Source of the DNA: Lichina pygmaea
Taxonomy: Eukaryota > Ascomycota > Lichinomycetes > Lichinales > Lichinaceae
Direction of reading: 5' to 3'
Assembly (NCBI GenBank): GCA_963422465.1
Contig: OY730172.1
Location: 3,658,001 to 3,722,000 of the forward strand
DNA: 64,000 nt
Position 1 is the stretch's first letter, and the number at the start of each line of letters is the position of its first letter. A program made the position numbers and the translations under genes. Shown here one piece after another: positions 9,468-58,578 of this stretch. The notes below the pieces were generated by a model that saw only the letters and a program-made list of their open reading frames with translations, ran no database searches and was not told the DNA's origin.

Positions 9468-12400
9468 TCAAGGCTCCTCATCCCAGTCGCAAGGGGACTC
9501 TCTGAGAGGTGATGCCAGGGCCGGGGCATCGGGGATAACGCCATGCACGACCAAGCCTCTCCACACAAGGTCGGTGTCCGTGGGTTGACGGCAAGTGAAA
9601 GACAGGCCGTCAACTATTCGCAGCGACTTGCAGCGGTGCCACAGCAGCAGATCATACGCTCTTCTGCACAGTCTTGTAGCTTCATCAGATCTCTTCCGGT
9701 GGGCCCGATCTACTTCCGGGTCCAGCGAGGGGAGAGCGAATGGATCAGGCTCGCTTGTGGCGCTGCCTTCATCGGTGTAGTCGAGTGTGTCGGCTGAATT
9801 TCGAGGAAGATCGACAAGGGGATGGAACCCGAGCGTGAACGGATTGTATCGTGTGTCCAGCTCTTTGAGCGTCCGAAACCCAGAGAGCGTGTTGATGGCG
9901 GTCCGCATGTGGCTGATACGGTTGCTGGCCAGCATGAGCCGCGAAAGTCGAACGATCCCTTCAAGAGGCTTGATGTCGCTGATGGCGTTGAAGTTTAGGT
10001 TCAGCACCCGGACATTCGTGAAGGTACGGCCGAACGATGCCGGAAGGCTTCGGAGACCACAGCTTGCCAATTCGAGATGCTGAAGGCTCAAATAATTGAC
10101 ACCGGAGTTGAACGAAGGCGGAATATTTGCCGAGAGACGAAGCGTCCGTATATCCTGACATTCATCGAGGACGGATGGCCTCGCTCCACCCCCAGGAGCA
10201 TCGTTACCTTGGTCTCGCATGGAGAGGCACTCAAGATGCATAGCCGTATGTAGGCCCACGAGTCGCTTGATTCTGTTGCCGTCAACGCGTAGCAAACGAA
10301 GGTGCGGGGTCTGATCGAGATTCAGAATCTTCAGCTGGTTGTTGTTCAGGCTCAAGGACCGGAGGCTCAAGAGCACCGTTGGTCCGCCGAGATTTAGGGA
10401 TGTTAGTGCGTTGTCATCTAACAAAGGTCAGCCTGGTCGACGGCAAGGGGTGCGGACAAATCAAGCTCACCAAAATTAGCGCTTTTAAGCGTCTCCAACG
10501 TCTTCAGGTTAAGAACCTCCGTGAGATCGTTTCCTCGAGCATCCAGCTCGAGAAGGCGGCCGCTGCTGCCGTATCAGCTTCGAAGCTGGGGAGAGGAGAT
10601 TGATATCGGGGCTTACAGCTTTGAGCCGGCAAAGTCCAAAGTCTTGAACTCGTTTCCTCTGATATCCAGCTTCAAAAGCCCGTCAAGGTCGAGAACACCT
10701 TCCAGCGAGGAGAGGAGATTGTGTCCCGCCTTCAGCTCTCGCAGATGAACGAGCCCCTGGATGGCTCCTAGGCTGTCAATCTCATTGTATGACACGTCCA
10801 GGTAGTGAAGGTTTTGTAGATGACCGTAGGTGGTGAGACCTGAGAGACAGTTGTTTGTCAGCCGGAGCAGACGAACGCTCGACGGCACCCCATTCAATTG
10901 CCCTGCGCGGTTGTGACTGGCGTCGAGCTTCTCCAACCTCGAACAGAAATCGACCAGCCCGTGGAAGGCAATGAGTCCCGAGTTGCTTAGATCGAGCTGG
11001 CGAATGTGTTCCCAATACGGCTCGTACGGCTCCAGGTCCGTCAGGCGTCGGACCAGGTCGAGAGTGACAAGGGATAGAGTTCGCCTTTCCCTCGTGCGCG
11101 GGAAGTCCAGCGGTCCCTTCTCGAGGCGGCCAACCTCATGTGCGAGGCTCTCGTCGGGCTGGTTGACGGTGAAGTCGGGTAGCGGACTGAGGTGGAAGGT
11201 CACATGGGAGAGTCGCTCGGCCGTCGGCCAGCGTCGCTGCGCTGTGCCGTCATGTGGCCCCGTCGGGCGACGCGGCGTAGCTGGTGCAAAGCCACGGCTC
11301 GTTCTCTTGCTGATGCCGATGCTGCTGTGATTAACGTTGATATTGCTCAACGCCATCGACTCCTCGTTGAAGCAAGATATACTGCGGTTCAGTACCGTTC
11401 GGCCCATGGTCGACAGCTGACCACGTCTTTGCCCAAACATTGAATTCTCAGAAGCGACGGGGGCTCCGAAGCGGAAAGTAGCATGTTCAGAATGGGTCAG
11501 ATCCCTTGCCGCGTGCCGTGGCTCCAGGACCGAGTTCGTCGCTGGCTCCGGCTGGCTCACAAAGGCAGAGAGATGTGCATCTTCGTCTTCCTCCGTACAC
11601 GGGCCTTGAGCGGGAATCTGGAAGCTGCGGGAGACAAGCGGAGACGAGAAGGTGATGGTCACGTCTCTCTTCGGGCGGCGCCGTCCAAAGGCCGGCTCTT
11701 CCGGCTCGCGACCCTCATGGGCTTGAATCTCGGCCTCGACCTCTTCAACAGGCTCTGCCAAGCGAGTCGCACCGGCTGCAGTACGGCTGAGACAACCCTT
11801 CACAGACCCAGCATCAGTTATCCGTTCGGAGCTTTTGGGACCGAAGTTGGTCTCCCCGCTTGCTTGAACGACAATCGATTCTTCGGGAGGGCGATTGTCC
11901 GCAGCGGCGCGGCCGGTCGTAGAAGACGACTTGGCCACGCCCAACTGTCCTGGCTCATCTTCTGCATCTCCCTCAAGCTCTGCTGCACCGGCTCGATCGG
12001 AACGAGGCGTGATCGTCCTGGCTACACTTTCACGGTCGACCTGAGCCTTGTTCCGAGTCTCCGCCTGGACACAGACTCCTCTCATGATGTTCAATTCCTC
12101 GACTTCGTCGACAGTCAAGTCGGGAATGTTCCGAAAGGGATCTTCCGTGCTGTCCTCTGAAAACAAGGGTGCATCTGGCGCTCCATTGTCGTTGTGAGTG
12201 GCTTTGCGCTTCAGCCAGACCTGCTTGTGATGGTCAAATGTCATGCCCGCAATCTCTCCAGCTACCAGGTGCGTCACCGCCTGAGGGGCGATGACGACTT
12301 TGGCGTCAGTTCGTGTCGAAGACCCTGTGCGCAGGGTACGGCTGGACGAATCTCCGGAGCGGCTTGTGGAATGCTGGCCTGCCGAGCTCTCGGCGGTTCG

Positions 12401-13657
12401 GCCGCCTACTTTAATTCCGGTCGCTGAGCGCGACTCTGCCTGACGCCCCGCGTCCTCGTTGATGCGTATTTTGAGGTCGTGGTTGATGACCGATCGGTCG
12501 CCGCTGCGCAGGCTGCCCTGATCCGCCAAGCGCTCGCGCGAGGTGCGATCAGCATCCGTTGTGGGTCGCGTGGCAGGGTCTGCCGTCGACTCTAACTCCT
12601 GAGTATCCGCATATCCACGCAGATACTCAAGAATCTTCGGATCCGTTTGGATCATAGGGTGCGGTGCAGCCATCGGGTTCTGGTTTCTGCTTGGTGGCCT
12701 GGAAAATCGATCCAAGGTGGACTCATAAGCAACCTCGAAACCGGACTCATCGACCGCATCTTCTTCGATATCCGGCATCCCATGACTCTCTCCCATACGT
12801 CGTTTCGACGGGCCAAAACCGCGGTCAGGATTGCCTCTAGCACGGATAAGTTCCATCACCCGCTCGGCCTCGTCTAGGAAGTCCCGCGTCTGGACAGATC
12901 CCTTTCGGCTCTCGTCGACCATATGTCCTTTCCGCTGCTGAGGCTCTTCCAAGGAGCGCGCTCCTTCTCTGTTTGTCTTTTCCGTCTCTGTGGTGTCGTT
13001 ACCCAGCTGCGTCTCTTTCCGGGTATCTTCGAGGACGTCTGGCCGAGTCGGGCTTGAGCGAACTTGCGCGAGAGTGGACTGTGGCGAGATGCGATCTATG
13101 GGTTTCCCCCGAGGCGTTGGTGGTCGGAACATGTTCTCCAGCCGGATGGGACTGAACAGGTCATTCGGGGCGCTTGGCGAACTGTCTTTTCCCAGCAGCC
13201 TCCGCTTCCATTCCATAGTCTCCACAGGACGTCGATTCTTCGGCGGTGACATACTCAGAGACTTTTTAATGTGTGTGCCATGGTGTTGCATCGTCTGTAC
13301 CCTAATCGAGGGAGGAGGTGAGTTGACAGGCTGAGCGTCCGCAGACGAGTATGTGGAGCCCTTGCGAGAGGCTTGGGGGATCGTTCGAATTGAAGGATTC
13401 GCATTGCGCTCCGCCAGAGCACCTCGATCGCCACGAAAAGGATACTCCAGTGGCTGCCGTAGACGTAGGGACGGGCGACTGTCTCCTCGACCGTGCGACC
13501 TGTGTGATGCCGCAACTTGTGTGGACCCACGTCCGGCACTCTTGAAGGCGATTCCTTCATCATGATTCATTTGCGTAGGAGTCCTCGGTAATGGCGGCGA
13601 TGACGACCTGGCCTGTGGAATCCAGTCCTCGGAAAGGGAATCCAGCCATCCCTCCAT
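9468..13657 (-). CDS. Nud1/Cdc11-type leucine-rich-repeat scaffold of the septation/mitotic exit network
   Basis: Three coding exons, 13657-10617, 10565-10471 and 10417-9468, give 1361 residues. The N-terminal two thirds are disordered and rich in Ser, Arg and acidic patches. From about residue 880 come leucine-rich repeats with LxxLxLxxN spacing, e.g. YWEHIRQLDLSNSGLIAFHG, LEKLDASHN, LHYLDVSYNEIDSLGAIQGL and LLKLDIRGNEFKTLDFAG. The cap reads FRTLKELDTRYNPFTLGFHP, then CKSLRIVDGLSF and VWRGLVVHGVI. This layout is that of S. pombe Cdc11, S. cerevisiae Nud1 and Aspergillus SnaD, the spindle-pole-body scaffold that recruits the septation initiation/mitotic exit kinases. Intron 1 ends in a tandem CAGCAG acceptor, so one residue may vary. 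Assignment rests on architecture and cap motifs rather than an alignment. Confidence 0.85.
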
Positions 13658-19555: not shown

Positions 19556-22500
19556 ATGTCAAGCTCCCCCCGCCTGACACCCAAGAAGTTGTCGCATGCT
19601 CGATCAGGGTCCGGCGGCGGGCTTGTCGACGTCGACGACGACGACGAAGATGGACGACCGTCCTCCTCGGCCGACCTGGCCGTGGCCGCTGCGACCGGGT
19701 CTCACCGTGTCAAGAGCTACTCCAGCATCCCGTCGTCGAGCTCGTTCCCGGGAGGGCCGATCCCGCAGCTGTCGGATCGTGACTCGATCTTCGCCACGCA
19801 CTACGCCGAGACAGCCGTGGCCGACGTCGTCGACGCTGGGAACGCGGTAGCGAGCGTAGGCCGTGCGACCGCCGCAGCGGCCGGACCGTGGGAGGCCAAG
19901 ACGGCGGGATCCGATGCACGAGACCGACAGCGTCCCACCGACGTCCGGCCGACGAGGGAACGGCCTGGCCCCGCTCGAGCGGAGTCACGGCCGCGAGTGC
20001 ATGTCGCAGCGACAGGGACGCTCTTGGCGCCCGTCCGCCGTCCGCCGTCCACGTCGCCGCCGCCGGGTGAGGGTCCTCGGAGCCGCCGGGACCAGCAGGT
20101 CGAGACGAGCGAGAGCAGCGGCAAGAGCGGCGTCGCTCGGGAACGTCTGGCGTTGCGACCAGCCGCCGCCTTTGGAGTGACTCAGCACGAGGTGACGGTG
20201 TCTGCTCCCGGTGGCCGTCCCCGCGACCGAGCCCCCGAGGAGTCGGTCGCCCGGCCATCGAAGCTCGCAAGCGCGCCGGTGTACAGGCTGTGGTCGATCG
20301 GTGATCGTGATCGGGAGGGAAGCGCATCCCACAGCGGCCCCGTCGAGAAGAGCGTTGCGGCCACTCGCTCCGGTGGCACCGAGTCGGCGACCCGGAGTCG
20401 GAAGACGAGCTACAGCCTGGGTCTGTTCAAGGAGAACGTAGAATCGTCGGCGCACAGAAGGCGCGACCCGCTGCGGAGCGACGAAGCTGGTCGCGACGGC
20501 CATGCTCACGAGACTGACTGGCAGAGTCGCGACCCTCGGCGCGACGAGCCTTCTCCGTCGTTGCCGGCCGTGACCGAGCCTGGACTCCTGGACGATGACG
20601 CAGCCGGCGCGCAGCTGCCCGCGACGCTCCGCCCGAGGACGTCCAGCCCAGCGTTTGGGCCGTCGAAGGAGACTAGGAGCGGAGAAGGGAGTGGAGAACG
20701 TGATGCTGGCCGAAGCCGAACTTCCAGCTTGGATCCGCTGCAGGCGCGGTCTCGTCTGTCGCGGCCGCCTTGTACGCTCCTGGAGGGTCCCGCAGAGAGC
20801 TCGGCCTCGACCGAAGAGGCGGAGCCGCAGCCAGGTCGTCCACCGTCCATCAAGGAGGAGGAGGAGGAGGAGGAGGAGGAGGGTGCCCATCACCTAGCGG
20901 CCGGGTTGACAGATTTTGAGCGCGACGACGACACCCTCAGGGCCGTCAACGCGGCGGAGCCGACCGGTCGAGGGGTCGGCCCTTCCAGATCCCCTTCCAC
21001 TCCTCCAAAATCCAAGATGGTCGACCCTCTAGCCCGGACGAGGGCCTTGCTCAGGGAAGACGAGGACGATGATGGCTCCGAGAAGGACGAGATCTCGTCG
21101 GCCGTCTACGTCCCCCACCGCACGCCCTCGATGGAAATCATCGAGGAGGCCTCTCCTCCCCAGAGCCGCACGGCGGACCGTGGCGTACGCGCTCGCTCGC
21201 AGCCGCCGCCTCCAAAATCACCACCACCACCACCACCACCACCACCACCACCACCACCACCACCACCACCACCGCCGCAGCTACCGCCATCACCACTAAC
21301 ATCACCACCACCACCCCCACCACCACCACCATCTGCTCTGGTCTCCGAGCACCTGGGCGCGTCGCAGCAGCCAAGCAGGCGGAAGACGTCAAGGGTAGAG
21401 CCCACCGACGACAGCGGCTACCGCACAAATTCTTCCACCTCCGAATATGACTTTTCGGCAACGGAGTCCGAGGCGGACGCGGAAGACGAAGCCATCAGAT
21501 CTGGTGTCGGGATCGGGCTTGGTCCGGAAGCATCCGAGGATAGAGATGTCACGCCCACGGCCTCGCCTCGACCTCGAGGACCCCCCACGTCGGGGTGGCC
21601 GATGAGCCAATCGGGCGAGCCGGCGCTCGGCGCCGTTGAGCTGAAGCCGTACAGTCATCAAGTCGGTGGCCATACGACCGTCTTCCGTTTCTCACGACGT
21701 GCCGTGTGCAAGGTGCTGAGCAACCGCGAGAACGAGTTCTACGAGACCGTCGAACGTAGACACCCTGAGCTGCTCAGCTTCCTGCCAAGGTTCGTGGCGT
21801 GAACGCACCCCGTTTATCCCGTGCCTCTGGAGTTTTTGACGCTGAGACTTCGGTCAAGATGCCTCAGGCGGCCCATCGAAGCCAGTCTCTACATCCCCGC
21901 GAGCAGTACCTGTTTCCCTTGGGCTAATGGCATGTGTTTTGCGCCTGGGCTAGATACATTGGCGTCTTGAACGTGACTTATCGGAAAGCCCCAAAGAGAA
22001 GGCGAGCACACCGCGAGGAGGAATCCCGTGGCAGCGGCGACGGTGGCGGTGGCGGCGGCGTCCTCGATGCCACGCGGACGTCCCTGCCCAACAGCACCAC
22101 CATACTTCCAGAATTGAGCCATGCGCCGCCCGGCGCAACGATCGGCGTGCCCCACGCCGGTGGCTCGACGAAGCCCGAGAATGTCCCTCGTATCGTCAGT
22201 CACTCTCAGCGGCCCACGGCGGTGCCTCAGGTGGTCTTCGAACATAACCGACACATCATTCCCCACGATCTATTCCGTCGTTCCTTGAGGCCCGCGGCGT
22301 CCAGAAGCACGACATCGCTCGAAGGAGACACCGTGTCTTCGACTCGTTCAGAAAGCTCACTCAAAGTGGATCATCTAGGCGCAGCGGCCTCAGACGTCGA
22401 CGGGTCGCCGGACAAGCATCACAAAGTGCGACCGGGGCCAGCGAGGCATCCCTACAGCTGGGGCGCCACGACCGTGAACCGCAAGCTTCAGGAACAGGTT

Positions 22501-24126
22501 CTGCGAGAGGTCTTCGGGCCGCCTCTGGTCCACTACTACCGTCGTCAGCATCGGCGTGCGCGTGGTCGCGCGCATCTGGCGATCTCGAGCCAGGATCATA
22601 TGTACGGCGGGCAACCAGGGTCCGGAAAGAGCTTTCCACGCCGAAACAGCATGCATTCCAAACCGACGTACGAGAGGGTCTCGGACGAGCAGGCTGCGGT
22701 CTCGCCCGCGAATGCGAGGTGCAACGGCCTGCGACGCGTGCACTGTACAGACGGCAGGCCAGACTACCGGGGCAGCGGCCTCGAGCACGACTACGACGCA
22801 GCCTCCAACGGTCATCTGCGCGTGGGCGTTGACACATCTGTAGCCATCCCACGTTCCCGACAACCGGAGCGCAGTGGGCGACGGCCGTCCGGCAGCAGCC
22901 CCTTGCGCCGACGATTCCGTCCATCGACGGCTCCGGGGCGTCGTCGACGAGCTTCGGACGAAGATGCTTATGGAGCCGACGACGAAGATGTGTTCGGCAT
23001 GGAGGATGATTTCGTGGCCGTCACTTCTCCTCTCATTCGACCCACAGGAGATGACAGATTGTCACTCTCGGGCCTGGTCGGCGAGCCAGGTGGCGAAGGG
23101 ACGTTGCATCCGCTGTCGCCGAGCGTCGATAGGAGCCCACGACCAACGAACAACGCTCCGTCGTCCGCGGCAGAATTTAAAGCGTCGCGGGAGACGACAG
23201 AGACGTCGCCGGCGCCGGTGCCGACCCAGCTGGCGGCCGACGAGCGGGTCGAGCACTTTCTGCTCCTGGAAGACCTGACGGCCGGCATGAAGCGGCCGTG
23301 CGTGCTCGACCTGAAGATGGGCACGCGGCAGTACGGCGTCGACGCGTCGGGGAAGAAACGTCTCTCGCAGCAGCGCAAGTGCCAGCAGACGACGTCGCGA
23401 GAGCTGGGGGTCCGCATGTGCGGCATGCAGGTGTGGAACGCCAAGGACAAGGTTTACGTCTTCGAGGACAAGTACTTTGGCCGACGGTTGAGGTCAGGCC
23501 GAGAATTCCAAGAGGCTCTGACGCGGTTCCTGTACGACGGCGTCGGCTACGCCGCCGTTGCGAAACACCTGCCGGTCATCCTCGAGAAGCTCGCGCGGCT
23601 CGAGCGGCTCGTGCGGAAGCTGCCTGGCTATCGTTTCTACGCCAGCAGTCTGCTCATGCTGTACGACGGCAGCAGGGGTGACGAGGGTGATGAGATGGCG
23701 GCGTCGGAGCCGGCGACCGACGACGTCACCACGGCAACCGCCGTCGCCGCCGCCGCCGCCGCCGCCGCCATCGGCCGAAACCCATCGGGCGATGGCAGCG
23801 CCCCGACGAGGAAGGAGGCCAAGCGAGTGCCCATCGACCTCAAGATCGTCGACTTTGCCAACTGCATCACGGCCGAGGATGCGATGCCGGCGTCGACGCC
23901 ATGCCCACCTCGCGACGCGCGCGGTGTCGACCGCGGGTACCTGCGCGGTCTGCGCACGCTGCGCATGTACTTTCAGCGCATCTGGAAGAACATCAACAAG
24001 GACGAATGGGTCGAGCGCGGCGAGGGCGAGGGCACCTTTGCGCTTCCTCCGGGCCTCGAATGCGAGGCCGCGGGTGCCTGGATGGAGGACGTGACGGAGG
24101 AAGACTCGGGTGACGTCAGTTTCTGA
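19556..24126 (+). CDS. KCS1: Inositol hexakisphosphate kinase Kcs1 (IP6K)
   Basis: Exons 19556-21789 and 21954-24126 are joined by a 164-nt intron (donor AG/GTTCGT, CTAAT branch-like word, acceptor CTAG) and encode 1468 residues. The kinase makes the pyrophosphate 5-IP7 from IP6. The conserved IPK fold begins near residue 705 with [33 protein letters not shown] and, across the intron, [14 protein letters not shown]. The catalytic core has [14 protein letters not shown] (PxxxDxKxG motif, near residue 1192), [11 protein letters not shown], and [10 protein letters not shown] near residue 1373. Long disordered segments precede and interrupt the fold, as in other fungal Kcs1 proteins. They include poly-Pro (about residues 552-592, DNA 21211-21333), a Glu run near 20858-20880 and an Ala run near 23743-23770. 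The protein ends [15 protein letters not shown]. Confidence 0.96.
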
Positions 24127-27679: not shown

Positions 27680-30319
27680 TCAAGGTCCCGGCGCTCCACT
27701 TGGGTCGAGGCTAGCCGGGGCCTTGATCCCGATTGGCGGCGGCGCCTGCGACTCGATGCCGCCGTCCTTGCCCGCGGTCGGCGCAAAGTGCGTCATCGTG
27801 TCCGACAGGCGCGGAAGCTCGGCGCCACTTTCACTGTACGTGACGATGGAGCTGACGACGGCGATTTGCAGCGACGGGATGTTCGATGCCGGGATACGAC
27901 CGGCTGGAGCGGTCACCTGTGCCGTCATGAACGCACCCGTCAGCTGGCTGGCACCTTCTCAGTAAGGCAAGAAGGGCGTCCTTCTCATTCGACAGACTGG
28001 GCAAGAGGAGAGTGGCGCAGTGCGCTGTCGCTGTGACCATACCCGCTCGATTTCCCAGCGGAGTTCACGGGTCAGGTACGGCACAGCGTCCTCCGCTTTG
28101 AGTGCAATCTGCTTCTCCACCAGCGCCGTCGTCAATGGAGCCGTGTAATTTGTGAGCCTGCTGCCGGTGGGTCTCTGGTTGGCATCGCCCAACGTCGACA
28201 CCTGGCCGGCCAGATCTGTTCCTGATCCTAGGTAGAACAAGATCTTGATAGAGCCGGGAGCTTCGACGGCCTTGAAGAGGACGTTGACCGAGTACTCGCG
28301 CCGAGCCGTCGCCGCCGCCGCTTCCGGCGCTTCCGGCGCTTAATTTCAACATCCGGTCAGCCCGGGCCGAAGACACGCAATCGAGATGGACTGGGTCGTC
28401 TGGGGAGCGGCAAGGGCAGCAAGGCGGCACAACTTACTTTGCGGCACGACCGATGTATTCGCTGCAAAAGAGGCACTCCTTAAGGCCGGACCGGAGCCGG
28501 GTCCGTATAATCTGTTCACTTCCCGCGTGGTAAATGCTTGCAAATCGCTTGTCGTCCGGCCCTGCGGGACCTCAGGGTACGAGTATCCGTAGGTGAAGAT
28601 GCTCGGGGCCCCCCTGATTTGGTCCGAGGTCCACTCCTCTGCGTTGGGGTTGCGGAAAGGGTAGAGCGGGGTTTGCAGATCGTCCGTCCCTGACACCGGC
28701 AACTGAAGAGTAGCCAAGGGCGACCGTGGAGCGGGCGTCAGATCCTCCCCCGGCCTGATCGCTTGAAACATGGCAGCGAGGCGGTCGACATTGGTGTGGC
28801 TGCAATGGTTTGCTGTTAGGCTAGACTGTACCTGGCTGCAGAACCATGCTGGAGGGATCGTGGATCGCCCCGCAGACGACTTCACCTGGGAGAACTCACT
28901 GCAACCTGCGAGTCATGTCAGTAAGAGCTCTCGCGAACTTGCTAGTCCGGATGAATGTGGCTTACCAGAAGATGGGATCAAATGCGGACCGAACGATCGT
29001 CCTCATGTCTCCACCCACGCCGGCTACCCATCTCGGCATCAGCTTCGACACCCGACGATGATAATCCGGAAGTGCATCATCATTGCCAAGGAGGAAGAAG
29101 CAAGCGGCGCCACCCACTGTGCACAATGTTGTGAGGAAGTTCCGCTGCGGATTGGTACGAGTTGAAATCTGTGTTCCGGGTGAAAGCGTTGTAAGTGCTC
29201 GACCGAGTGACGCTGCACTCGTCAGCAAAAGTCCCAGGCCTGAGAACGAGGTGATGTGAGCAACGCGGCTTGAAGAACGGCGACTGACGTTCCAAAATCG
29301 AACGTGGATGCTGCCGAATCACGAATCGTCGTATCTCGATCGACTCCCTAAGACAGCCGATGTCCGTCAGCGATCGGCTCCGCCTTGTCAAGGCAGTTGC
29401 CCTGGGGCCGTGCATGGGAGTTGAGCAACTCACGAATTCTGGATGGCGTTGGAGGAAGCGGTAGGCGAATAGCGGGTTCGTAATAGTCTCCCTCGTCGGC
29501 GCGCCGCCGGTGCCTGGCCGAGTAACGCTGATCGTGCTCTGCCGCGCTGCCGGCGGGATGGTTGACTCCGCGGTCGACGCCCAATCCCAGTATCTGCGTG
29601 GCACACGTCATCCTCGGCTCTTCGACACCTACTGCGCCTGCACAAAGCCTTCGGATGGCGACCGGATACCACACCAGGCGAGACGGGGATGATAAACTTA
29701 CGGAACTCTGACGTCGTCCGCGGCGGCCTGATAGCGGGCAGCGTCCGAGCCAGTGAAGTTCTGGGCAATGCTGACGGCAGCGTCGTGGAGCTCTTGCTCA
29801 AATAGAAGGAGATACGGGCGGTGCCAGGTCAAGAACAGCGCACTCGAGTGCGTGCAGTAACCCACGCCCGGGTTGACAATGGTACCGTTCGGGTACTGCC
29901 AGGTGATGTAGGGCGCCCCGTGGATTCCTGTAGAGAAGGAACAAGACTTTCAGCCTACGGTCTTCCCCGCGCCAGCCCCGGCCAACGTCTTATCGAACTA
30001 GCGGGGAAAGAGGAGTGAACCAACCGGCCACCTGATAGAAGCTCAGCAGGTTGGATTCAGCACGGCGCGCCACGTTGTCCCATGCCAGGATCAGCATGTT
30101 GAAGATATCGGGAAAGTCGTTCTGCAAGGTGTTGAGCGAGCGACGCTGAACTACCCTGGTAAAGCCGCGGATGGGCGTAAAGGCCGGGGTCTGACGCTTG
30201 AAGAGCAGGCTGGACCCATCTTGCAAGGACCTTGTATCTATGGCAGCCCCGTAGGCACTCTGGCTCGTGAAAGCAACAAGTCCGATGAGGCCAGCGGCCA
30301 GCTTGTCGAGCCAGCGCAT
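27680..30319 (-). CDS. Secreted tyrosinase (type 3 copper phenol oxidase)
   Basis: The ten coding exons are 30319-30025, 29927-29702, 29593-29434, 29347-29289, 29212-29114, 29031-28966, 28905-28900, 28799-28438, 28338-28043 and 27943-27680, giving 610 residues. Tyrosinases oxidise phenols to quinones, feeding melanin formation. A signal peptide is visible (MRWLDKLAAGLIGLVAFTSQ, cut near AYGAA), followed by a KR site that may be a Kex2 cleavage point. The CuA site has GIHGAPY, GYCTHSSALFLTWHRPY and LLLFEQEL. The CuB site has LPHNIVHSGW and WLHHTNVDRL. The C-terminal part has NRLYGPG and EYSVNVLFKAVEAPGSIKIL. WLHH is completed only by a 6-nt exon (GTTGCA). The last introns are less certain than the copper-site exons. 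Flanking genes give no sign of a melanin gene cluster. Confidence 0.92.
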
Positions 30320-44988: not shown

Positions 44989-46434
44989 ATGGAACGGTCG
45001 ATAGAGCAGACATTGTCTAGCCTGGTGCCGGCATTCAATTCTTCTCCTCCGGAGTCCTTGGTCAACCTTGCGATGTCATTACTAGCCCAGTCAAGGACGA
45101 AAGCTAGCAACCTCAGGAACGCAGAGGAGATTGCCCGAGTTTATGTTTGTACGCATATGGCTTGTGAGAGGTGATGTTACTACTCACCAGATCAGGGCAT
45201 GCTGATGGGGACTGCTGACGCTCTGACTACAACCAGGCTGAAGCGCGCCCTCGACATCCCGTCATACACTGTCCGGCCTCCATGTCCTCCTAGGATCTAC
45301 AATAAACTGTACAAATACTTTCATCAGGTCCTGGAGGTAAAATTTTCCAGACCACGAGCTGCCAGAGTCTCAAATGGCGAGGATCTGGTACCTGCATCGT
45401 CGAGAAAACGGAGCAGGCCATCGTCAAATGAGACTCGAATCTCCGAGTTGAAGAATAGGCAGCAGCAACTTCAAGATGAACCCAGCGTTGAGACGCACGT
45501 ACCTGATTCTATGACACCATTGGTGGAGCGGCTATGCGCGGAGATCATGGACGCTACAGCTGCTCGTCATGTGCTCGCGGGTGTCAATGCTGTTCTTACA
45601 TCATCACCTCCACGTCCACCCAAAGATGCTGAGACCCCAACTGAGACCCTAAAAGGCAAAACGGCTGCGCTTGCCATCGCAGTTTGTTTCTATGTCCAGG
45701 CTCGCATACATGGAGGGCAAGCAGCCGCGAAGGATCTCACCGCGAAGCGCAAAGCAGCTGTTGAGATTGCCAACAACTCGCCAGATAAATGGAACGGCGA
45801 CGAAATGACAAAGGATGAAGATGTGGAGCGTTGGATGCAAGAGCTCCATTCGAGAGGCTGGCTGAGATTGCCATGGTTCACCGACATCGACAGCGAGTTC
45901 ACAAGTCGATCGACAACCGGGAGCGATCACGGGGATGATTCGCTTGGGCAGCAGGACCGCTCGTTGGGGAGTGCGGGCCATGAGGAACAGGACGACGACG
46001 ACGACGACGACGACGATTCCGAACCTCTGCGTCCAACGCGAAAGAGACAGAGGCCACTCCCAAACTCATCTCAGCGGCAATCCTGGCGAAAGGAAATTGT
46101 CGAACCAGGTCTCAACACGATGGTATGTATCTCCGATTCTCCTTCGACCAGTCGATTTCTTTCCCGTTCGCTGTCCCCTAGGGTCAGCTTTTTGCGTTAG
46201 CTATGGCCCGTGTGTCCTTTGAACTTCTTCCATGCCCTCCATTCCCACTCCGACCGTCTTCGCCATCGACTAGTCAGCTGACCCGCTAATCACGACGTGG
46301 GTGAAAACCCTTCTCGGCGCAAGCAGATGCAGCCAAAGCTGGACTTTCTCTCGTCCGATTACAAGGCAGACTATCGCACCTGGGAAGATGCCGTGTTAAG
46401 CCGCATTTCGGAGAGTGTGCGGAAACGCCGGTGA
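44989..46434 (+). CDS. ORC6: Origin recognition complex subunit 6
   Basis: Exons 44989-45170, 45237-46122 and 46327-46434 encode 391 residues. The N-terminal TFIIB-like cyclin fold is clear: MERSIEQTLSSLVPAFNSSP, NLAMSLLAQSRTKASNLRNA, EEIARVYVCTHMACERLKRA and LDIPSYTVRPPCPPRIYNKL. A second helical block (MTPLVERLCAEIMDATAARH) continues to WMQELHSRGWLRLPWF. An acidic run of Asp lies near residues 311-320. The short last exon, MQPKLDFLSSDYKADYRTWE, matches the C-terminal element by which Orc6 contacts the rest of ORC. The protein is part of the six-subunit complex that marks replication origins. The last intron (204 nt) is longer than others in the window, but the ending fits the family. Confidence 0.9.
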
Positions 46435-56706: not shown

Positions 56707-58578
56707 TCATCCTCGGTATGGACCTCTCGAACGACTGGGACCGGAACCACGACCGCGACCACGACCATGACCGTGACCATGTCCACGACCCCCTGCGCCT
56801 CTCCATCCCCCACCCCGTCCTCTACCCCAACCCCTCGAATTGCCCGCCCGTCGACCCGAGCCCGACTGCTGCGTTTGTTCGGCCAGCTTCATTCTCTCGT
56901 CTCTCTGCTCATCCGTCAGGAAGAATCGGTTCTCGATGCCTATCATGTCGCAGAAACGAGCCGTCTGCGGGTTGTTGTACTCCGGGGGCTGAGAATCTGG
57001 GGTGTCGGCTGGGTCGTCCGCAGATGCCGGGTCGACAGATTCGTAGGGTGGAGCTGTAGGCTCGAAATCCTCCGGGATGAGTAACCCGCCCTTCGTCACG
57101 ACGTGTTCTTCAATCCACGCTTCCTCTGCTTCGATCAGTGGCCGGTAATGCGCCTCGCCTCTGTTCGGTGGGACGGTCGCGTGCCGGTCGCCCAGTACGA
57201 GCTCGGCGGCAAACACTCGAGTGATGGCGAGCCATTCCTTGTCGTACGAGAGCCGAAGCTTGCCTTCATCCGCCTGACATCTGATCTCTTCTGGCCTTTG
57301 GCTCGCCGGTTGGACTTCGAGCAGCTGCAGAAACTTGCGGCCTGGCAGACACTTGTCGAGAGCCAAGAAATTTGTCGTCTCGTTCGTTATATCCGTGGGT
57401 GGAGCAGTCTCCGCAGTTTTCTGGGGGTTCCGGCTTGTGACGGAGAAGGAGCTGGGCAGTTGGTCCCGGATGCTCTGCGGAACAGTCGATGTGGTCGCTG
57501 CTTGGCCTTGTGGTTTCGGCGCTGGTTCTTGATCTTTCAGGGTCGACTCTTCTTCTGAATCGTCCATCTCGAGGTCGATTTCATCCTCGTTTCGTACAGC
57601 ATGGCTGGGCCCCCATTGGCCGTGCTGTCCCTGAGTTTTGGCATCAGTGTCATCTGAATATGATGCCGTGGCGTGCGCTCCTTGTACTCGCTCACGGGCT
57701 AATTGATCTTTACTTTCTTCGTGGTTGACCATAGCAGCGAACTTGACGTGCAGATGCGCGGCGAACCAGTAGGCTGGCCTCAGCCTGTCAAACACCCGTC
57801 TCGCAGCGACGCTCCCCAGAGTACCGTCCCTAGACTCGGCCTCGAAGTCGTTCTTTTTCTTGAAGAGAGTTTTATAGTCTCCATGCCACTCCACCGCCCT
57901 TGGCCAATCGTGACTGATGCCAACATCAACCTGGGACCGAACCTGTACCAGTTTGCGAACGTCAAGCTCACGGACGTGGTATATTGATCTCACGTCATCT
58001 TGGCTGTATGGTAATCGTTCATGATGGGTCTTGTTGAAGTTGTATCCTTTCCAGATGCCGGACAATCCTGCTATGCGCAAGGCTCCCAGCCGGACCACGT
58101 TGGCTGCGCCAAGATAGTAGATGTTGGGGGCAACCCACCCTCCGTAGTAGAGTTCAAAAAGATGACTGCTGGCTTCATGATTGCCCCCGACGAAGACAGT
58201 CAAGAACGGCGCTTTTCTAGCCCCGCTGTAGTATTCATGAAAGTCGCCAATCTCTCGATACTTGTGAGGTACGGCCATGCAGTTCAGGTCTTGTGGGTTG
58301 CGGACCGCCTGAGAGCATCCATCAGACTGGCCTGGCGTCATCGACCGACAGCTGGGCGCGGCTCACTTGGAAATCACCCCCGATGATCAGGAGATCAACA
58401 CCGTTCCATCCGTTGACCTCGCAAGTCTTTTGAATGGAACAGTATATGGCGTTGAGCGTCCCATGACCCTAAGGAAGCTTCAGTCAGACATCCCAAGGCA
58501 AGGCCCAACAACATGCTTACTGACACATCCTTCGACTGCAACGCGCAATCCGCTCTTCTCCACAACGACCGCAGCCAT
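56707..58578 (-). CDS. DBR1: Lariat RNA debranching enzyme Dbr1
   Basis: Exons 58578-58525, 58468-58367 and 58308-56707 encode 585 residues. Dbr1 hydrolyses the 2'-5' branch of excised intron lariats. Metallophosphoesterase motifs are in order: VAVEGCGHGTLNAIY (residues about 14-28), LLIIGGDFQAVRNPQDL, VFVGGNHEASSHLFELYYGG, AGLSGIWKGYNFNKTHHER, DVGISHDWPRAVEWHGDYK and YWFAAHLHVKFAAMV. The C-terminal Dbr1 domain includes NFLALDKCLPGRKFLQLLEV and LRLSYDKEWLAITRVFAAEL. It ends with an Arg/Gly- and His/Gly-rich tail, GWGRGRGGGWRGAGGRGHGH and similar. Intron 1 splits GC-GHG and intron 2 follows DFQ; both joins fit the family. The start is 199 bp from a divergent RNase P/MRP-type gene. Confidence 0.96.

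Follow-up and report, generated by a model that had tools for sequence, protein, structure and literature searches.

A Probable Six-nucleotide Exon within the CuB Motif

The locus raises the question of whether six nucleotides, GTTGCA, can constitute a complete coding exon within the copper-site motif of a fungal tyrosinase. The hexamer (28900-28905, minus strand) lies within the window, the 64-kb stretch of DNA that was analyzed, between an exon whose 3′ end is GATCCCATCTTCTG (TTCTG at 28966, minus strand) and an exon that begins CCACACC at 28799 (minus strand). The coordinates given by an earlier, sequence-only reading for the exon ends, the hexamer, and the splice sites are all exact on the minus strand. 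Both of its translations were also reproduced: TG joined straight to CCACACC reads C-H-T-N, and insertion of GTTGCA is predicted to yield TGG TTG CAC CAC ACC (W-L-H-H-T) with the frame kept. With the hexamer included, DPIFWLHHTNVDRL is read within an open 10-exon model of 606 residues.

The hexamer is bordered by its own acceptor and donor (CGCAG/GTTGCA/GTGAGT), and complete GT-AG introns lie on both sides. Intron 6 (28906-28965, minus strand) comprises 60 nt, extends from GTAAGC to CGCAG, and contains CTGAC at 28921-28917; its donor is one base off the consensus. Intron 7 (28800-28899, minus strand) comprises 100 nt, extends from the consensus donor GTGAGT to TTGCAG, and contains CTAAC at 28819-28815, 16 nt ahead of the acceptor at 28800. 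Exon 7, the putative microexon, would contribute the last base of the Trp codon, all of the Leu codon, and positions 1 and 2 of the first His codon, with position 3 of that codon and the complete second His provided by exon 8. On the evidence of the sequence, it is very probable that the hexamer is a constitutive coding microexon in a 10-exon gene for a fungal tyrosinase, a type-3 copper protein.

Splicing Alternatives and Chance Controls

Every way of placing one or two GT-AG introns of 40-200 nt around the motif stretch was enumerated. Sixty-two of the 517 combinations were open and in frame, and the microexon form was the best match to the paralogues L017 and L018, with an alignment score of 124, followed by scores of 107, 102, and 88. 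When GC donors were allowed, 192 of 1,796 combinations were open, and the microexon form again ranked on top. These two closest paralogues carry the same stretch free of introns, as FDPIFWLHHCQVDRL and FDPIFWLHHSNVDRL. The WLHH codons of the window gene, TGGTTGCACCAC, differ from those of L018, TGGCTACATCAC, at synonymous sites only.

Given that six is a multiple of three, skipping of the hexamer leaves the frame unchanged, and removal of a single 166-nt intron (28965-28800) with a canonical outer GT-AG pair would give an open, in-frame product, FDPIF-C-HTNVDR, that is two residues shorter and keeps the CuB-ligand His. This form scores 87 against 124 on the paralogue alignment and 129.5 bits against the Pfam Tyrosinase family, so that 20.2 bits are lost with the hexamer. 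Nor does it account for the two internal splice sites and branch motifs that surround a hexamer restoring W-L-H, an arrangement observed in 0 of 50,000 shuffles of the 166-nt interval with dinucleotides kept. In the same control, an internal exon restoring W-L-H was possible in 94 of 50,000 shuffles when signals were ignored, and the relaxed motif [WFY][LIMVF][HQN] was obtained in 3 of 50,000 with the same good signals (at least three of four donor positions, YAG, and a CTRAY branch motif). Skipping as the explanation of this sequence is thus very unlikely.

The arrangement is also rare in the surrounding DNA. The pattern AG-G(Leu codon)CA-GT occurs at three sites in the window, both strands counted, and a good donor together with a branch motif is found only at 28905. 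In a control with window segments, 81 of 42,554 gave the exact motif and 27 of 42,554 the exact motif with good signals, the site itself included; as there is no second good-signal site in the window, these 27 segments would be self-overlaps.

A further reading retains the microexon and ends intron 7 earlier, at 28821 or 28836, which would make FWLHLTANHCSHTNVDR or FWLHQVQSSLTANHCSHTNVDR the main isoform. Both products are open and in frame and rank second and third of the 62, but these acceptors split the HH pair and lengthen the protein by 7 or 12 residues next to the ligand. The CTAAC at 28819-28815 lies downstream of both and precedes the acceptor at 28800 by 16 nt. Use of either earlier site in the main isoform is therefore highly improbable.

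Gene Model and Copper Site

The gene model, built by comparison with the paralogues, extends from 30319 to 27680 on the minus strand, where all of its features lie. Its 10 exons of 295, 226, 160, 59, 95, 58, 6, 362, 296, and 264 nt give 1,821 nt of coding sequence including the stop codon, without an internal stop or frame break. Exon 1 (30025-30319) carries the start codon and an N terminus that is hydrophobic by eye, and exon 2 (29702-29927) carries the CuA histidines in GIHG, YCTH, and TWHRPY. Exon 3 (29434-29593), from YWDW to RHPEF, and exon 4 (29289-29347), from GVDRD to FDFGT, were placed by alignment with L018 (at FDFG for exon 4). Exon 5 (29118-29212) encodes VTRSSTY to PHNIVH, including the first two CuB histidines by alignment, and exon 6 (28966-29023) encodes GVGGDM to FDPIF plus the TG of the Trp codon. 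Following the microexon, exon 8 (28438-28799) runs from the third base of the first His codon through the second His, the CuB ligand by homology, and then from TNVDRL to VVPQ. Exon 9 (28043-28338) covers the Tyrosinase_C domain region, and exon 10 (27680-27943) ends in the stop codon, its acceptor being chosen by frame and less certain. Donors across the gene range from weak (GTTGGT and GTATGG) to consensus. For introns 5 and 9, splice sites were picked by frame and paralogue fit and are less certain.

With the hexamer included, the model matched Pfam Tyrosinase (PF00264) at 149.7 bits against a curated cut-off of 22.6 and Tyrosinase_C (PF18132) at 37.4 bits against a cut-off of 26.9. By paralogue alignment, all six copper-ligand His positions are present, in GIHG, YCTH, TWHR, PHNIVH (two), and as the second His of LHH. 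We take the histidines of GIHG, YCTH, TWHR, and PHNIVH to be ligands in the window gene.

In abPPO4, a mushroom tyrosinase of solved structure, the HH pair is His282-His283. CuB is bound by His283, whereas the conserved neighbor His282 has an alternative copper position of low occupancy and may be a minor additional ligand (PMC4157443). By homology, the CuB ligand of the window gene would be the second His of HH. The sequence-only reading had the hexamer completing the CuB site; it does restore Trp-Leu-His beside the ligand, but the ligand His lies entirely in exon 8, so the microexon is not its source and skipping leaves it in place. For the same reason, the prediction that a model lacking the hexamer is copper-dead is unproven, the CuB-ligand His being still present in FCHTNVDR. 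Skipping removes two residues before the ligand His and places a Cys next to it; judged from the sequence, such a form is probably damaging, with loss of activity likely.

A Pfam search of the genome returned at least 12 exon matches at at least seven tyrosinase-like loci, the window gene included. The second His of HH is present at six of seven loci (the exception being the decayed L022), the first His at five of seven (Leu in L019 and Tyr in L022), and the Trp at five of seven (Phe in L019 and L020). In the alignments of PDB haemocyanin units shown, the Trp position is occupied by F, Y, M, I, or L in several units and the Leu position by I, V, F, or T, and the first His is Arg in one unit. 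LHH is thus common, but WLHH cannot be called invariant, as had been claimed; the motif reads FLHH in L020 and FLLHA in L019, and the haemocyanin units vary at the Trp.

Also considered was decay of the window gene, with the hexamer as a coincidental remnant. The branch leading to this gene is fast-evolving, so that relaxed constraint is possible, and another copy in the same genome, L022, is clearly decayed. Against this stand the open 606-residue frame, the matches of both Pfam domains above their cut-offs, the six copper-ligand positions kept by alignment, and the absence of a hexamer with good signals from all 50,000 shuffles. Across the 220 codons aligned with L018, where the encoded amino acids are 57.7% identical, dN was 0.41 and dS 1.81 (NG86), the latter near saturation; the resulting dN/dS of ∼0.23, a rough value, fits protein-level constraint. 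Decay of the window gene is accordingly very doubtful.

Ten of the 23 listed window open reading frames of at least 220 residues were scanned against Pfam, and four matched. These were a lariat debranching enzyme C-terminal domain (DBR1; 56707-58341, minus strand), an inositol polyphosphate kinase (IPK; 21934-24126, plus strand), ORC6, barely above the cut-off (45199-46200, plus strand), and leucine-rich repeats (10613-13657, minus strand).

Paralogues and Intron History

Introns inside the motif were observed in the window gene only, at one of seven loci and at none of the six other tyrosinase-like loci found in the genome, and their absence from these six suggests intron gain in the window gene. 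L020 (∼1840-1930) and L021 (∼1820-1915) have in common an intron position within the residue that follows HH; this intron has the phase of window introns 6 and 7, from which it is displaced downstream by 12 and 6 nt, respectively. Introns 1-5 were compared across L017, L018, L020, and L021. From the translations read, the position of intron 1 is common to the window gene and all four of these loci, and that of intron 2 is common to the window gene and L018. Counterparts of introns 4-7 were found in none of L017, L018, L020, and L021, and none of intron 3 was found in L017, L018, or L020. The corresponding, poorly aligned loop of L021 holds an intron that matches intron 3 in phase, and intron 3 may therefore be older.

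A five-gene tree joined the window gene to L018 (100/99), with L017 outside; the grouping of L020 with L021 was weak and is flagged as a possible long-branch join. The window branch, at 1.5, is about seven times as long as that of the sister L018 (0.22). Introns 6 and 7 were probably gained in the window gene after its split from the sister paralogue, and the simplest reading of the whole comparison is that the window lineage acquired introns 4-7 and perhaps also intron 3. As a possible alternative, the other copies may have lost several introns together. Gain of these introns and fast protein change coincide in the window gene.

Sources for the two motif introns were sought within the genome. 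With expectation values up to 10 and a search that skipped very common words, introns 6 and 7 matched only themselves, so that no introner source is visible. An introner origin, that is, from a recently repeated intron, was rejected because this search returned no near-identical copies of either. Among 36 intron pairs within the gene, two (1 with 9 and 2 with 5) reached a level of at most 4 of 200 shuffles, and neither involved intron 6 or 7. An 82-residue query from the gene had no relative in the viral contigs scanned.

The combination CTAAC N5-15 YAG N1-24 GTRAGT occurs at 50 places in the genome against 129 for a reversed-pattern control, and the CTGAC version at 191 against 140, an excess in which many of the matches listed are copies of a few repeats. 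The pattern matches include near-identical repeats on several contigs, for example CTGACTCTTTCCACAGGACCAGGTGAGT and CTAACCAATTCTTTGAGCAGGACATTGGTGAGT, which are probably mobile-element families.

The decayed copy L022 (G000 C6:1911800-1915000, with the motif at ∼1660-1700) is related to L018, has YY in place of HH, and contains an in-frame TAG. It is 79.7% identical to L018 over 1,137 aligned bases, and of the 231 differences, C>T accounts for 88 (56 of them at CpG) and G>A for 83 (59 at CpG). This bias suggests mutation that favors CpG, either repeat-induced or linked to methylation.

Proposed Splicing Mechanism

Intron definition is the usual mode for short fungal introns. Because introns 6 and 7 each carry complete signals, each could be recognized as a short unit in this manner. 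The intron 6 acceptor probably lies too near the intron 7 donor for both to be bound simultaneously, and the two introns would thus be spliced out sequentially, with either one going first. The mature mRNA would read FDPIFWLHHTNVDRL, with the CuB-ligand helix intact. With respect to fungal microexons, PMC11121469 refers to a fission yeast study of splicing by intron definition (Romfo et al. 2000).

As the hexamer is frame-neutral and adjoins a CuB ligand, regulated skipping is conceivable. Such a switch would alternate between two isoforms that differ by two residues at the copper site, FWLHHTN and FCHTN (the latter with the ligand His plus a new Cys), one of them active and the other with altered or no activity. 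The exon would have been born by two gains 6 nt apart, as part of a burst that gave one fast-evolving paralogue four or five new introns. This composite proposal is improbable.

Two introns lying 6 nt apart also recall stwintrons, reported from ascomycetes, in which one intron sits inside a splice element of a second and removal proceeds in two steps; in stwintrons (e.g., PMC9024468 and PMC5639578), two closely linked introns are removed sequentially, as proposed for the window gene, but no exon is left between them, whereas here 6 coding nt would remain. A stwintron is vanishingly unlikely at this site, since joining the outer exons directly gives FCHTN, which is a poorer family fit (87 against 124, and a loss of 20.2 Pfam bits, in terms of sequence fit only).

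Relation to Known Microexons

The constitutive microexon favored here has several precedents in length or setting. In the P450 genes of Phanerochaete chrysosporium, microexons are reported to be frequent and the shortest exon is 6 bp (PMC1184071). Like the window gene, these belong to a fungal enzyme multigene family with small introns (45-55 bp in their case) and exons down to 6 bp, or two residues. They differ in being basidiomycete P450s, for which microexons are proposed to promote alternative splicing (PMC1184071), whereas the window gene is a tyrosinase whose hexamer lies in a copper-site motif and would be used constitutively. Exons of 6 bp are thus already known in fungi, although exons so small readily escape notice, and the tyrosinase would add another.

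In PMC11121469, functional microexons are said to be previously undescribed in filamentous fungi, and a 20-nt case in Xlr2 of Trichoderma virens is presented. Both cases concern a filamentous fungus, a microexon missing from the annotated model, and completion of a conserved domain. By contrast, the Xlr2 microexon is not a multiple of three, is glucose-dependent, and was seen in RNA, whereas that of the window gene is 6 nt long, frame-neutral, and predicted from DNA. Chicken cardiac troponin T has an exon of the same 6-nt length in an animal gene, according to PMC8042270; the window gene is fungal, with short introns for which intron definition would be expected. The link to Agaricus bisporus PPO4 (PDB 4OUA) is by protein only, through the central tyrosinase domain and the HH motif in the CuB helix (PMC4157443). 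Among the matches listed in the literature searched, mostly open papers, no report of a fungal tyrosinase microexon was found; in the available text of one fungal paper that matched both tyrosinase and microexon, the latter word denotes a read-mapping option only.

In summary, recognition of the hexamer corrects the gene model at the active site and provides a compact case in which an enzyme gene has two introns separated by 6 nt while its close paralogues lack both. Should orthologues confirm that the gain was recent, the locus would offer a datable natural example of microexon birth and a test of the minimum exon for the fungal spliceosome.
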